From Thermoplasmata archaeon (GTDB lineage Archaea > Thermoplasmatota > Thermoplasmata > Lutacidiplasmatales > UBA184), in contig JAKAVQ010000003.1 in the NCBI GenBank assembly GCA_021817245.1, positions 124,001 to 188,000 on the forward strand: a stretch of 64,000 nucleotides of DNA, written 5' to 3'. Shown here piece by piece: positions 30,793 to 36,444 of this stretch (its first letter is position 1; the number at the start of each line of letters is the position of its first letter). Position numbers and translations under genes: made by a program. The notes under the pieces are model-generated. The model saw nothing but the letters and a program-made list of their open reading frames with translations, searched no databases and was not told the origin of the DNA.

Positions 30793-31027
30793 ACTGGTGG
30801 ACAGGATTGTCGAGCTACGCGAACTCGCCAAGCGAGCTGTGAGTTCGAGTCGTCTGACGGGATCCGAGCGCCTTAAAGAAACAAATTGAACGATGGGGAC
30901 TGCGCACGCGCAACTCCGTGTAGAGGGGCCAAATCGGGGCGGTCCTCCCAACCACGGAACGGAAAGGACGTCTGCTCGATTCAGTAGGCGCCGGTTCGGT
31001 CTCGGATCGAGCTTGTGATTCGTCGCC

Positions 31028-31060
31028 CGCGCCCATCGCGGTCCCATCATCAGACGCGCG
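31028..31060. repeat. 33-bp gene-start repeat, copy A
   Basis: One of three copies in 1.7 kb that differ at only a few positions. On the minus strand each copy contains GATGAxGGG, then a GC-rich spacer, then ATG and G/AGCGCG. In this copy the potential ATG (31036-31034) opens a frame without recognisable product. See copies at 32125 and 32665. Confidence 0.75.
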
Positions 31061-31107
31061 TGTCCCTTCGTGAAGGTCGCGTCGTCCAGACGCTGGTCGC
31101 CGCGTCG

Positions 31108-32133
31108 TCACTCCCCGAGAATCTTGAGACCGAGGTGCCGTCGAGTCGCGTCGTGTATCCAGAGTCCCGGGGCTCGACAGTCACTGCGGCTGAAGTGGAA
31201 CCCCCGTTGTCGATACAGCCGCACGGCATCTGTCGGATTCTGAAGGGACACGGTCAAATCAACGTAGGCAACACTCCTCGAAGCAAGATTACTCAGCGCT
31301 CGGTCAATGAGCGCGGATCCGATTCCCCGGCCCCGGTGGCTCGGACTCACCTCCAGATCCTGGATGTGCGCCGATTCGTCTCTCCGCGTGACCAGCACGG
31401 CGCCGACGACCCTCTTCTCGATCGTCGCCACGAACGAGGCATCCCAGTCGAGTCGGGAGGGGCGCGCTGCAAACAGCGATCTCAGGTAGCGGCTCCCCCA
31501 CAGCGCGGTATCACCGCCGGGACCGAACGCCGCGTCGATGTGTTCGCGGTATGCCTGAATGGCGGCGACACCCCCGACGTGCTGCCGGCGGAGCCTCTCG
31601 AGATGGACATCTCCGGGTGGGTCTCGGGCCGTACGGAGCCCGCGAGGGTCGATCTCTAAACGCCTTCGCTCGATGTGGCGGAACCCGAGTTCGCGCATCA
31701 CCAAGGGGAAGCTTCGTGGTGCAATCGGCTGCATGCTGTCACTGACGGTGAAGATTGGTCCGCTGCCGAACAGTGCCCGCATCTGATCACGCAGGATCGA
31801 GGCCGTGCGGTGGCCGTGGGTAAGATAGAAGGTAGACAACTGAAGCCCGGCTTGGTGGCGAGACCGCAGGCAGAGCACGAACCCGATCGGTGAGCCGTCA
31901 CCCTGTCTCAAGACTCGGGACAGTTGCTTCCCAGCCTTCGCGTGGTTACGATCATCGTCCGCGATGCGGGCTCCGCGACTCGGGTACACGAACACCATGT
32001 CCCGGCGATACCTCCGCCAGAGATCGGGCGTCACCCGCTCTGTCGGGAGCTCGCGGAACGTGGTGCTACTCCCCTTGGTTGAAACACGGCCGGCCGGACC
32101 GCTCGTGCGGGGCACTCGGCGCGCCGCGCTCAT
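31108..32133 (-). CDS. Tandem GNAT-family acetyltransferase
   Basis: The 341-residue product begins at ATG 32133, which lies inside copy B of the 33-bp repeat; an in-frame GTG at 32154 is also possible. The C-terminal domain (about residues 210-335) is a clear GNAT fold with the acetyl-CoA loop RGRGIG within EVSPSHRGRGIGSALIDRAL and a closing RLYRQRGFHFSR. The N-terminal half ends in VMRELGFRHIERRRL, which resembles the closing strand of a second GNAT domain that lacks a clear CoA loop. The acceptor is unknown. Confidence 0.75.
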   Translation of the reverse strand: MSAARRVPRTSGPAGRVSTKGSSTTFRELPTERVTPDLWRRYRRDMVFVYPSRGARIADDDRNHAKAGKQLSRVLRQGDGSPIGFVLCLRSRHQAGLQLSTFYLTHGHRTASILRDQMRALFGSGPIFTVSDSMQPIAPRSFPLVMRELGFRHIERRRLEIDPRGLRTARDPPGDVHLERLRRQHVGGVAAIQAYREHIDAAFGPGGDTALWGSRYLRSLFAARPSRLDWDASFVATIEKRVVGAVLVTRRDESAHIQDLEVSPSHRGRGIGSALIDRALSNLASRSVAYVDLTVSLQNPTDAVRLYRQRGFHFSRSDCRAPGLWIHDATRRHLGLKILGE

Positions 32134-32157
32134 CGCGGTCCCGTCATCGAACACGCG
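32125..32157. repeat. 33-bp gene-start repeat, copy B
   Basis: It covers the start of the tandem-GNAT gene: the ATG at 32133-32131 is inside the repeat. It differs from copy A at about four positions and from copy C at about four. Confidence 0.8.
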
Positions 32158-32193
32158 GTCCGCTCAGGAATCGTGCGTCGAGAGGGGGGCTCG

Positions 32194-32292
32194 TCAGAGG
32201 GAACGAGCCGTCAAAGCGAACAGAACCACCGCGCCGGCGAGGATCGCCGCAACGACCGCAGCAACCACGACCGAGTCAATTGGATCGTACAT
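32194..32292 (-). CDS. Small single-span membrane protein, or tail of the preceding gene
   Basis: From ATG 32292 this frame encodes 32 residues, MYDPIDS followed by one hydrophobic helix of about 20 residues and TARSL. The same frame is open back to 32427, directly after the TAA of the two-CxxC gene, and that upstream part (AKAFTAAERARGARG..., then LDRDTGCE) also has coding-like composition but no start codon. Two readings are possible: an independent micro-protein, or a membrane-anchoring tail once joined to the zinc protein and now cut off by a stop codon. Confidence 0.4.
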   Translation of the reverse strand: MYDPIDSVVVAAVVAAILAGAVVLFALTARSL

Positions 32293-32427
32293 CTCGCACC
32301 CGGTGTCACGGTCCAGCGGTTCAATACCATATCGGCCGTTTAGTGCGCGGGTGAACTCACGGCCGAGCGTTTCGCTCCCACGCGCTCCCCGTGCTCGTTC
32401 AGCGGCCGTGAAGGCCTTGGCCCGGAT

Positions 32428-32673
32428 TTAGTACTTCAACAGGAGGAGCCGACACGTCGGGCAGCGGTAGCCGTCGAACCAAACCATTCCTCCCCGCGTA
32501 TAGTCCCCGATCTTCTCTCCACCGAGGGCCAGGGTTGAGCGTTTCTTGTGCCATTTCGCCCCTCCGGTAATCGACTCGGCGGCGACCGAGCCCGGCTCCA
32601 TGGCGGATTGACAGTACGGACACGTTTGCGGGGGAACACCATCCTGCACGGGGCGGTCTCGCGGCGCGCTCAT
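32428..32673 (-). CDS. Small two-CxxC zinc protein (DUF6487/PF20097-like)
   Basis: The 81-residue product starts at ATG 32673 inside copy C of the 33-bp repeat. It has a CPYC knuckle followed by QSAMEPG near residues 18-28, a central charged-aromatic region with AKWHKKRSTLALGGEKIG, and a second knuckle in YRCPTCRLLLLKY at the C-terminus. That pattern matches small DUF6487-type proteins of unknown function that probably bind one zinc. The stop is TAA, and an open frame with a membrane helix continues beyond it. Confidence 0.7.
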   Translation of the reverse strand: MSAPRDRPVQDGVPPQTCPYCQSAMEPGSVAAESITGGAKWHKKRSTLALGGEKIGDYTRGGMVWFDGYRCPTCRLLLLKY

Positions 32674-32697
32674 CGCAGGCCCGTCATCGGACGCGCG
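32665..32697. repeat. 33-bp gene-start repeat, copy C
   Basis: It covers the start of the two-CxxC protein gene. Right of it lie 214 bases with no recognisable gene and then the end of the IS21-family element. Confidence 0.8.
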
Positions 32698-32976
32698 CGC
32701 CCCACATCAAGCCTCGGGGCTCGCTCGGCAAGGTGAATCTCGCTCGCCCCCGCGGCATGATGGGGACACGGGCTCGCGTCCCGCTCGAATCGCGCGGCGC
32801 GAGCCCTGCGCGCTCGCTTCGCGCCGATGACCGCGAGAAGCGCACAACCCGCCTCCGAAACCCCTTCGACCGCGACCGACTCTGCGACCGCAGCCCGCAC
32901 CGTGCTCCTGATGTCGATGGGCCTGGTAATTTCCCCACTTCTGGGCTTTGATTTTTCCCCACTTCGATTTAAACAC

Positions 32977-33793
<817 letters not shown>

Positions 33794-33797
<4 letters not shown>

Positions 33798-35098
33798 CGC
33801 GCACCTCCCGAGGTGAGGAACTCATCGTAGACCGCCAGCGGCCGCTCCTCCACCTCGGGGATGGGCGCCGCGGCGTGGGTGCGGAGGTACTCCGAGAGGT
33901 TCCGCTGACGTGCCGCTGAGTAGAGCCCGACGAAGTGTTCCTTGATCCGGACCACGGCCCCGCTCCCCCCGCGCAGCTCGTGACGACAGACCTCCTGGTT
34001 GTCCACCTCGATTAGGAGTTGGCGGTCTCTCAGGCGCAACAGGGCCTCGCGGCCCGCATACCGCCAGGGGACTGAGCAGCGGTTGCCGCCGAACGACACG
34101 AAGCACTCGCGCGAGACCTTGCGAGTCTCGCTCACCGTCACGGGGAAGAGGGGCCGTGCGTCGAGTGCATGGAGGTGCTCTTCCTCGAGGAGGTCGAGGG
34201 AGATCCGGCCCGTCGTGGCGTGGACCCGCTCGGCGTTGACGGTGTTGCACCACCGTTGCGCTTGGCGGTTGAGGTCGCCGAGGCCGGTGAACGGCCGACC
34301 GAGGAAGAAGTTCTCTTTGACGAATCGGATCGTGCGCTCGATCTTGCCCTTGGTCTGGGGGCGGTAGGGCCAGCACAAACGAGGCCGGAACCCGTAGTAG
34401 GCGGCGAACTCGCCGTACTGTCGGTTCCACTGGTGCTCGGCGGTGAGGAGTGCCCGCTCGAAGACGACCTAGGTCATGTTGTCATGCAACAGGTCGTCGG
34501 GGTAGCCGCCGAGGTAGTCGAACGCATTCAGGTGGCAGCGGATCAGGATGGGGGTGGTGATCCGGGTGACGAACTCGACGTAGCGGCAGCGGGAGTAGTC
34601 GAGGATCATCGAGAAGCCGTAGAGGTGGCGGCGCACCCCGTCCTCCTCGAGGTATCCGAAGTGGCCGAAGTCGACCTGCGCCTGCTGGCCGGGATCGGTC
34701 TCGAATCGAACGACGGCGGCGATCTCCTTCTGCTGCCTCAGCGGACGGACGAATCGCTTGACCAAGTCATAGCCACCGGCATACCCTTGGCGTTGGATCT
34801 CCTCGAGAAGACGGACCGACGAGAGGGGATGTTGCGCGATCCGTGCCTGGAGATACGGCTTGAACGGGTCCAGCAAACTCGGCGCCTCGACCCGAGGATG
34901 CCGTTCTCCGGGAGGGCCGAGATGCAGGAGGCTCCGAACGGTCTTTCGATCGAGGTCGAGCTCGCGGGCGATGGCACTGATCGACATTCTCTCGGTCGAC
35001 ATCCGACGAATCTCTGCCGGCTGTTCCAGTCGAAGCACCTGGTTCCTCCCCCGCACCCTCTCTTCCAAGGGCCCGGGAGGGGTGGGGAGATTCGACAT
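33794..35098 (-). pseudogene. istA: IS21 transposase, interrupted by in-frame TAG
   Basis: The first 209 codons (35098-34469) encode the N-terminal HTH (MSISAIARELDLDRKTVRSLL) and the start of the DDE catalytic core (QQAQVDFGHFGYLEEDGVRRHLYGF). A TAG at 34471-34469 replaces what should be a sense codon (family sequence LLHDNM-x-x-VVFERAL). The same frame then continues for 224 codons through VVFERALLTAEHQWN, PYRPQTKGKIERTIRFVKENFF and the C-terminal domain to 33794. The reading frame is otherwise intact, so the stop is the only visible lesion. Its stop overlaps the istB start (ATGA). Confidence 0.88.
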
Positions 35099-35133: not shown

Positions 35134-36444
35134 CTCAAACCGATCTCGATACTCGGAACGGAGATCGCCCCCGACGACATCCTCATCCAACGGCTCAGCG
35201 AGGCGCGCATCCGAGAGAAGGCGGAGAGGCGTGAGGGATGGGCGGCGCGAGCCCTCGGACTGAAGATACTCGTCAATGCCGCGAGCTACGGGGTCTTCGT
35301 TGAGGTCAACGTCAAGCGGAAGAAGGGCGAGATGGAGGTCTGCGGGCTCGACACTGAGGAGACCTTCGAGGAGGATGGCGCGAAGGTCGAGGAGGTGGGC
35401 GAGCTATTCTCGCCGCTTCTCGGGGCCACGATTACGAGCGGGGCGCACCTTCTCCTCGCGGTGCTCGACACCGTCGCCAAGCGAAAGGGCGCAGAGGTGG
35501 TCTATTGCGAGACGGACTCGGCGTTCGTTACGCCGTCGACGGCTGCGCCCGAGATCGCGCGAGTCTTCGACGCCCTCAACCCCTACGCAGTGACGTGCCC
35601 CTTCCTCAAGGGCGAGACCGAAGAGAAGGCTCCGAAAAGAGACTACCCGAAAGGGTCTACCGACAGAGCGCCTCGGTTCTTCGGACTCTCCTCCAAGCGC
35701 TACTGCCTGTTCGTCCAGGATCGCTTCGGGCGCCCTGTCGTCTTCAAGAAAGGAGCGTCGGACCACGGACTCGGGATGTACCAGGTTCCCGAGGACCGAG
35801 AGAAGTTCACGAAGCGCGTCTGGGAGCGGCTGATTGCCGCCGCTCTCGACGGTGACGACGACTTCTCGGAGTTCGGATACCTACCCGCGACGGCTCAGTT
35901 CGCGCTCACGACCCCCGCCCTCCTACCGCGCGTCTCGAAGATCGATGGGATTCGGCCGTTCGGCTTCCTGACGATACGATACCTCGACCCCGCCGCGCTC
36001 CCCGAGGGAGCAGAGACGTTCGAGCTACGGCCGTTCATCTCCCCGAAGGAACCTGCTTGGCTGTCCCTCGCCGAAGAGGACAGGGCGAAGACGTGGGCTC
36101 ACATCATCAAGGGCTACGCCGAGCATCGAGATCGGAAGTACGAGGTCGGAGCCGACGGCCGAATCGTTCGCCGCTCCGTCCTGGTCCGAAAGGATTCGCT
36201 GGTTGGCTTGGGCAAGGGAGGGATGAAGCTCGCTGCCCGCCTGAAGCTCGGCAAGGCCGCTTCAGCCGACCCGTCCATCTTCATCGACTGAAAGCGCCGC
36301 CTGCACGGGATGGGGAGGGCGGAGGCGCGGGGGCTGGGGCTGCCCTGGCACGCGGTCACGAAGTGGAAGGCGGCCCTCCGTCAGCACGGGACTCTTCGAA
36401 AAGACGCGCTCGGTAGGCTGGAGCGCGCATTGGTCGCGGGCTGA
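35134..36444 (+). pseudogene. C-terminal remnant of a mobile-element-type family B DNA polymerase
   Basis: Immediately right of the IS end an open frame continues in one register to 36291 and carries family B polymerase motifs. Motif B is K-ILV-N-AAS-Y-G (35263-35292), inside LKILVNAASYGVFVE. Motif C is YCETDS at 35503-35520 (YxDTDS, with the first Asp replaced by Glu). FFGLSSKRYCLF and KKGASDHGLGMY follow, typical of the large PolB-like proteins of integrated elements and plasmids. After a TGA at 36289-36291 the same frame continues 50 codons with a basic HTH-like tail (KRRLHGMGRAEARGLGLPW...) to 36444, as in those proteins. The N-terminal exonuclease half is absent, so the gene was truncated by the IS or a deletion. 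ATG 35332 could still open a 319-residue product. Confidence 0.7.

Follow-up and report, generated by a model that had tools for sequence, protein, structure and literature searches.

Same-strand arrays of a ~55-bp repeat in Lutacidiplasmatales genomes: a candidate recombination site of mobile gene cassettes

Three copies of a repeat on the minus strand of the window (the whole 64,000-nt stretch of DNA that was analysed) belong to a family of sites that recur, in arrays of short segments, in related archaeal genomes. We estimate at roughly two in three the probability that this repeat serves for directional recombination and ends every unit in an array of mobile cassettes, with a fixed head and a tyrosine-type recombinase acting in trans. 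Comparison of genomes revealed a conserved site sequence, arrays kept on one strand, homologies that break off at the site, and units both duplicated and shared; we infer recombination as the cause, and propose a crossover point, insertion at the head and a type of enzyme.

The repeat in the window and in related genomes

An earlier note on this DNA described three copies of a 33-bp repeat covering the starts of minus-strand genes. The three copies are indeed present on that strand, with 0, 2 and 3 mismatches to a 25-base core that matches three times in the window vs a mean of 0.00 in 100 shuffles. The unit length had to be revised, as the conserved sequence is ~55 bp long and runs ~28 bp further upstream; its consensus, from reading the relatives' loci, is roughly CGCGACCTTCATGAAGGGCGCGCGCGGTCGATGACGGGACCGCGATGAGCGCG. 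Full copies, identified by core and profile matches, are located on the minus strand at 32664–32721 (copy C, at the array head, holding the ATG of a zinc-ribbon gene), 32124–32181 (copy B, holding the ATG of a GNAT gene) and 31027–31085 (copy A). Copy A opens just a 73-codon frame (30815–31036, minus strand) of doubtful coding status, with no Pfam match.

The repeat contains a dyad, CGCGGTC and GACCGCG, with a spacer of 6–8 bp between the arms; perfect GGTC..GACC arms are found in 17 of 54 copies. Such arms with a short spacer resemble, we presume, the core site of a tyrosine recombinase. The dyad is able to pair, and RNAalifold yields two pairs. A specified 10-pair hairpin was 84.4% paired vs 84.3% in shuffles, with covariation equal to that of the shuffled control, which lends no support to the hairpin as a conserved structure. 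The repeats had no match to any RNA family in Rfam at gathering scores, and this reading was dropped. No exact match to the core was found in viral contigs.

In the window's own genome (2.31 Mb in 31 contigs) a degenerate pattern of the repeat has three exact matches, all of them the window copies, and two more places with three mismatches that look like chance. The profile model R1 finds 3 copies at E ≤ 1e-5, 5 at E ≤ 1e-3 and 7 at E ≤ 0.01. The earlier note had looked to the whole genome for at least four further copies; the own genome has three strong copies in total. Taken alone, so few copies would lead to that note's verdict of chance or local duplication, a verdict that the related genomes overturn. 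With up to three mismatches, the pattern has 49 matches in 24 of 61 genomes of the genus (own included) vs 6 for a reversed control, and many of the 49 are clustered on one strand.

A sequence-only model built from 54 copies, whose E-values are, according to the tool itself, approximate, matches 62 of 78 genomes of the genus (E ≤ 0.01), 55 of 103 genomes and five of seven genera of the family (E ≤ 1e-3; Lutacidiplasmatales, Thermoplasmatota), and 15 of 200 genomes sampled from the class (E ≤ 1e-5). All 15 belong to the Lutacidiplasmatales family; outside the family the 200-genome sample gave zero matches at E ≤ 1e-5. The genomes compared are different species, which sets the comparison at species level, and two of them (G024 and G044) were counted separately in the genome tallies despite a likely shared contig. 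Site-bearing genomes include the MAGs Thermoplasmata archaeon AcS5-107, SubAcS13-64 and JOPF287, the first of which is among the Lutacidiplasmatales genomes tabulated in PMC9287336 (in excerpt). The window's genome, being labelled as of the same genus, falls in this order too.

A chance origin of the repeats was ruled out by the shuffles, the reversed-pattern controls and the copies in relatives. Simple local duplication is excluded because the genes in the window's two intervals are unrelated and other genomes also have the site.

Arrays, units and their boundaries

An nhmmer profile search (E < 0.02) collected 140 copies in 51 non-redundant loci. The profile was derived from copies in loci chosen for having copies. 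The loci counted had likewise been selected by their matches, so the counts describe the arrays and give no unbiased rate. One locus, L030, was excluded from the counts of arrays, gene starts and homology ends. L030 (G044:C83) and L027 (G024:C6) are short contigs from bins of different species with equal repeats and scores in mirror order, and probably represent the contig of one population binned twice.

All 85 pairs of neighbouring repeats with less than 4 kb between them have both members on one strand; the median spacing is 843 bp, and the three spacings of 56, 62 and 213 bp may reflect split or tandem matches. The longest of the arrays read has 15 copies (L025, in G024); G062 (L105) and G005 (L109) have arrays of seven copies each. 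Ten-fold order-3 Markov shuffling of ten loci gave one match of at least 16 bits vs 65 in the real sequence. Site quality showed no significant polarity along six arrays (best case rho −0.49, p 0.06). GC content in three array stretches is 61.7–61.9% vs 64.8–67.7% in flanks from the same two genomes, and 64.4% in the window island vs 69.7–72.1% in the remaining window.

Single copies of the repeat also stand apart from arrays in several genomes. This would suit a MITE-like small mobile repeat, with copies inserted independently of each other; such insertion predicts random orientation, however, while close pairs agree in 85 of 85 cases, and we regard this origin as very improbable.

Behind the two-repeat array of G062:C2 there are two transposase-like genes, IS110-like by eye (L108, 10618–12940). 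The G024 array contains the last 282 bp of a tyrosine recombinase gene twice, at 97% identity (L025, 14470–14751; L050, 2744–3025), in a duplication that adjoins a ~1.7-kb segment itself present in two copies.

The window array holds two units, both with genes on the minus strand identified by Pfam. The interval from copy C to copy B (540 bp) contains the gene of an 81-aa two-CxxC protein, DUF6487 (32428–32673); the interval from B to A (1097 bp) contains the gene of a 341-aa GNAT acetyltransferase (31108–32133), of which no relatives were confirmed in the genome contigs.

In other arrays the same unit could be found more than once. A glyoxalase unit (Pfam Glyoxalase_6) is present in L025 in two copies of 97% identity with repeats at both ends; the similarity extends from inside the left repeat to the last bases of the right repeat, and the DNA outside is unrelated. 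A Kelch-type unit of the same locus is repeated at 72%. A RibD_C-type unit is common to L052 and L113, loci of two genera, with 85% identity over 858 bp, and an ornithine-cyclodeaminase-like unit is common to L095 and L119 (89%). In L119 the similarity of the latter starts 61 bp inside the unit, and the left repeat is unrecognisable.

Between loci, 74 homologies with a length of 130 bp or more arrive at a repeat from its upstream side. Relative to the repeat's 3′ end, all 74 terminate between −28 and +26: 48 at −1 to +2, 62 within 8 bp and 12 further away. Continuation by 27 bp or more beyond the repeat was seen in none. These homologies were drawn from 27 loci, and the pairs are non-independent. 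The idea of a recombination site in a cassette array, one of several offered in the earlier note, is thus supported by same-strand arrays, by homology breaking at the repeat and by units duplicated or common to genomes.

The boundaries are not uniform. Two shared units (L052, L119) stop ~25 bp before the end of the site, past the first arm only. The two copies of the glyoxalase unit have identical first arms and differing right-hand spacers; on this ground the crossover was tentatively placed in the spacer, and it probably occurs between CGCGGTC and GACCGCG, with the left-hand copies slightly favouring a later point.

The mechanism that we propose is as follows. A unit would consist of one segment, mostly of ~0.4–2.4 kb, plus one site, and units would stand head to tail behind a fixed head formed by a long palindrome and a divergent gene. 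Most likely, a tyrosine-type recombinase provided in trans joins or excises units between directly repeated sites, with the crossover probably in the 6–8 bp spacer; new units would enter at the head. Among these species-level genomes no excision, circles or strain-level gain or loss were seen. This speaks against the mechanism, as do the lack of a recombinase consistently next to arrays, the missing orientation bias of the units' genes, the gene-free intervals, the mixed boundaries and the lack of clear polarity along arrays.

The earlier note had a gene start in each copy. This is correct for copy B with the GNAT gene and for copy C with the two-CxxC gene, each of which includes the ATG; it is doubtful for copy A and untrue of many copies in relatives. 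Two repeats of L041 also stand at the start of recognisable genes, for a nucleotidyltransferase and a HAD hydrolase. An ATG is located within the last 14 bases in 57 of 141 repeats and is missing there in 84; in an alignment of the first 30 copies, 17% carry G instead of the T of that ATG. Frames of at least 100 codons are opened by 16 of the 57 ATG-bearing repeats; the two remaining frames attain this length in 6 of 114 cases, and one of them is often blocked by the TGA in ATGAGC. Predicted genes between repeats (at least 60 codons, with an overhang of up to 60 bp allowed) show no orientation bias, with 26 on the repeat's strand and 25 on the opposite one. No predicted gene was found in 45 of 85 intervals, by a gene finder that was trained on 15 window genes and that foreign genes may escape. 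Given these counts of ATGs, long frames, strands and gene-free intervals, the link to start codons holds in places, not as a rule.

A shared translation-initiation leader, also suggested at first, finds no support as the main function in view of the ATG and long-frame counts, the lack of strand bias and the gene-free intervals. More broadly, the repeat could be a conserved leader, promoter or start-codon motif serving expression, with no part in recombination. The recognisable genes with an ATG inside the repeat, in the window and in L041, and the excess of long frames agree with this; the many repeats with no ATG, the substitution of G for T and the coincidence of unit boundaries with the repeat argue against it, leaving it a very slim chance.

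Array head, candidate recombinases and genomic place

By homology to the heads of relatives, the array head of the window is a long imperfect palindrome with divergent start codons (32664–32872). Copy C makes up its right arm, and the left arm is at 32825–32845 with three mismatches. The window head is 70–80% identical over 132–222 bp to the heads in L025, L026, L031, L034 and L039, and at the 3′ end of copy C its homology to other genomes' heads breaks off. A long palindrome whose other arm starts a divergent gene was found in 8 of 20 scanned loci, window included, and further heads turned up in loci beyond the first 20. Heads of 70–88% identity part ways at the repeat, and therefore have different first units behind them.

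The divergent head gene of the window (plus strand, 32827–32910, end approximate) retains its first ~28 codons (MTARSAQPASETPST...) and is cut by an IS21-type element; its remainder was not found within the window. The element consists of an istB-like gene (32976–33797, minus strand; Pfam IstB_IS21, E 7.4e-58) and an istA-like transposase gene in two frames, 34469–35098 and 33794–34378 (33794–35098 in all, minus strand), matching Mu-transpos_C_2 at 1.3e-12 and rve at 1.4e-6, the latter under the curated cut-off. As the element breaks the head gene, the window has a short array of two full cassettes with a dead head gene of its own.

Head proteins have ~210–250 residues with two conserved blocks. 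Matches to the head gene were found in 35 of 106 genomes of the order, all 35 in the Lutacidiplasmatales family. The protein has no match in Pfam or PHROGs, and its structure model (pLDDT 69.7) has no PDB match at E ≤ 0.001; thus, a known recombinase fold is unsupported, and the head protein as the recombinase was set aside. The head gene represents a new protein family. A link to viruses was likewise rejected, since viral contigs yielded neither the exact core nor any relative of the head protein that could be confirmed.

Behind several heads, spaced 3′ fragments of the head gene alternate with other genes, all fragments being on the head gene's strand; such series lie to the left of the heads in L135, L105, L136, L087 and L025 (G062:C9, G031:C38, G071:C28, G024:C11). 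The own genome has a second copy of the head gene, lacking the usual start, in L085 (14929–17476; G000:C20:74928–77475). Another own-genome locus, L139 (G000:C14:234000–245656), has two head-gene fragments and one weak repeat (E 0.006).

The arrays might also have formed in another way: small non-autonomous elements ending in the site may have been inserted serially at the fixed head and then have decayed, which would imply an insertion hotspot, with neither excision nor reshuffling and with no working cassette system. The gene-free intervals are in line with such accretion, as are the pile of head-gene 3′ fragments on the other side of the head and the several copies of the head gene that are truncated or frame-shifted. 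Against it, the 97% glyoxalase duplicate in one array and the unit present in two genera indicate movement or copying by units, and we judge both the accretion and its implied hotspot unlikely, if worth keeping in mind.

A search for the enzyme gave candidates that could act in trans. Locally, none of the five PF00589 matches of the own genome is on the window's contig (C24), which speaks against a tyrosine recombinase next to this array, and no recombinase was seen to adjoin arrays consistently. The integron integrase model TIGR02249 had no match over cut-off in 78 genus genomes. An Xer/IntI-like match exists in 69 of the 78 (E ≤ 0.001); the common match, a protein of ~310 aa, is Xer-like and skips TIGR02249 positions ~180–238, the integrase-specific stretch.

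A divergent tyrosine-recombinase family, with the motifs GLRPG, K, RPYVLR, GH and Y read from the alignment by eye, is present in 47 of 106 genomes of the order (20 of the 35 with the head gene and 27 of the 71 others), at varying places. Its best solved relative is an XerC-like recombinase (E 1.9e-4, N-terminal part only), and its structure model is poor (pLDDT 52.5). Members are located ~4 kb from the head in G071, ~15 kb from it in G062, and directly behind the head-gene copy of G000:C20, where part of a second one follows at the contig end. Either the Xer-like protein or the divergent recombinase could be the enzyme acting in trans.

With regard to genomic place, an ArcS-like gene and tRNA-Val occur together in 12 of 12 relatives. 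In five of them (L179, L180, L181, L183 and L184) a conserved block begins ~0.4–1.5 kb from tRNA-Val and comprises a 285-aa gene or a phosphatase-like gene, two kinase-like genes and a 518-aa gene (names by eye). The block's kinase-like genes are ~73 kb from tRNA-Val on the same contig of the own genome, and in G051 (L096) the distance between the block and an array head is ~3 kb; the interval therefore varies, and it contains arrays in two genomes. Judged from these sequences, the interval between tRNA-Val and the block fits a variable locus occupied by arrays.

Adjoining the IS21-type element and tRNA-Val there is a remnant of a family-B-like DNA polymerase (35332–36291, plus strand, with an upstream frame from ~35150), read by eye from KILVNAASYGVF and YCETDSAF and with no Pfam match. 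A 79% identical piece of it is found in G007, ~0.8 kb from the same tRNA-Val.

Comparison with known systems and meaning

Integrons and dif modules are, to our knowledge, the main known kinds of mobile cassette array. The arrays share with integrons a head-to-tail order of non-homologous units with one related site each in the same orientation (85 of 85 pairs), a head whose gene is read divergently, accessory genes such as those for GNAT and glyoxalase, and a unit duplicated within an array. They differ in several respects. The attC core boxes GTTRRRY / RYYYAAC are found in 0 of 54 aligned repeats, and no IntI exceeds the cut-off (0 of 78 genomes), the divergent head gene having no recombinase match at all. 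The site is conserved in sequence, with no covariation for a fold; the head is palindromic, and genes of units have both orientations.

Since an integrase over cut-off and the core boxes are missing and a conserved fold finds no support in covariation, we do not class the arrays with integrons; from sequence, it looks as if they work like an integron without being a member of that group. A canonical integron in an archaeon, or an attC cluster with no integrase, has the similar overall plan in its favour, and integrons have been reported in archaeal MAGs (PMC9668308, in excerpt). Besides the core boxes and TIGR02249, the hairpin that pairs no better than in shuffles and the interval genes that are not co-oriented speak against this identification, which we consider highly improbable.

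The dif modules of Acinetobacter plasmids (pdif sites for XerC-XerD; PMC13141974, in excerpt) resemble the arrays in having small gene modules parted by short sites, in which a short spacer lies between two recombinase arms and on which a recombinase of the host may act in trans. As described in that excerpt, pdif sites alternate in orientation and are plasmid-borne, whereas here the orientation is the same in 85 of 85 pairs and one array is on a 1.22-Mb contig; the sites here are also longer (~55 bp) and a fixed head is present.

A third comparison is with integrase islands at tRNA genes. The window island is beside tRNA-Val, where five of 12 relatives keep the block while the others and the own genome differ. 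In contrast with such islands, the units are mostly shorter than 2.4 kb, often with one gene or none, and the repeated site is no tRNA end.

Among the literature matches listed (titles; open-licence PMC papers), there was no report of such arrays in Thermoplasmatota, and the words integron, cassette, integrase and mobile are absent from the main text of PMC9287336, on Lutacidiplasmatales.

Tentatively, and at somewhat less than even odds, we suggest that the Lutacidiplasmatales have a cassette-capture system of separate origin from integrons, built on a ~55-bp site and a palindromic, bidirectional head, with a head protein that has no known relatives. Such a system would store genes in units placed head to tail and trade them between genera, and its site may supply start codons. 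If this is true, arrays of swappable small units would have arisen more than once, with an independent family of sites in archaea; an uncultured soil lineage would have a concrete route of gene transfer, and the hunt for its recombinase would have a testable site.
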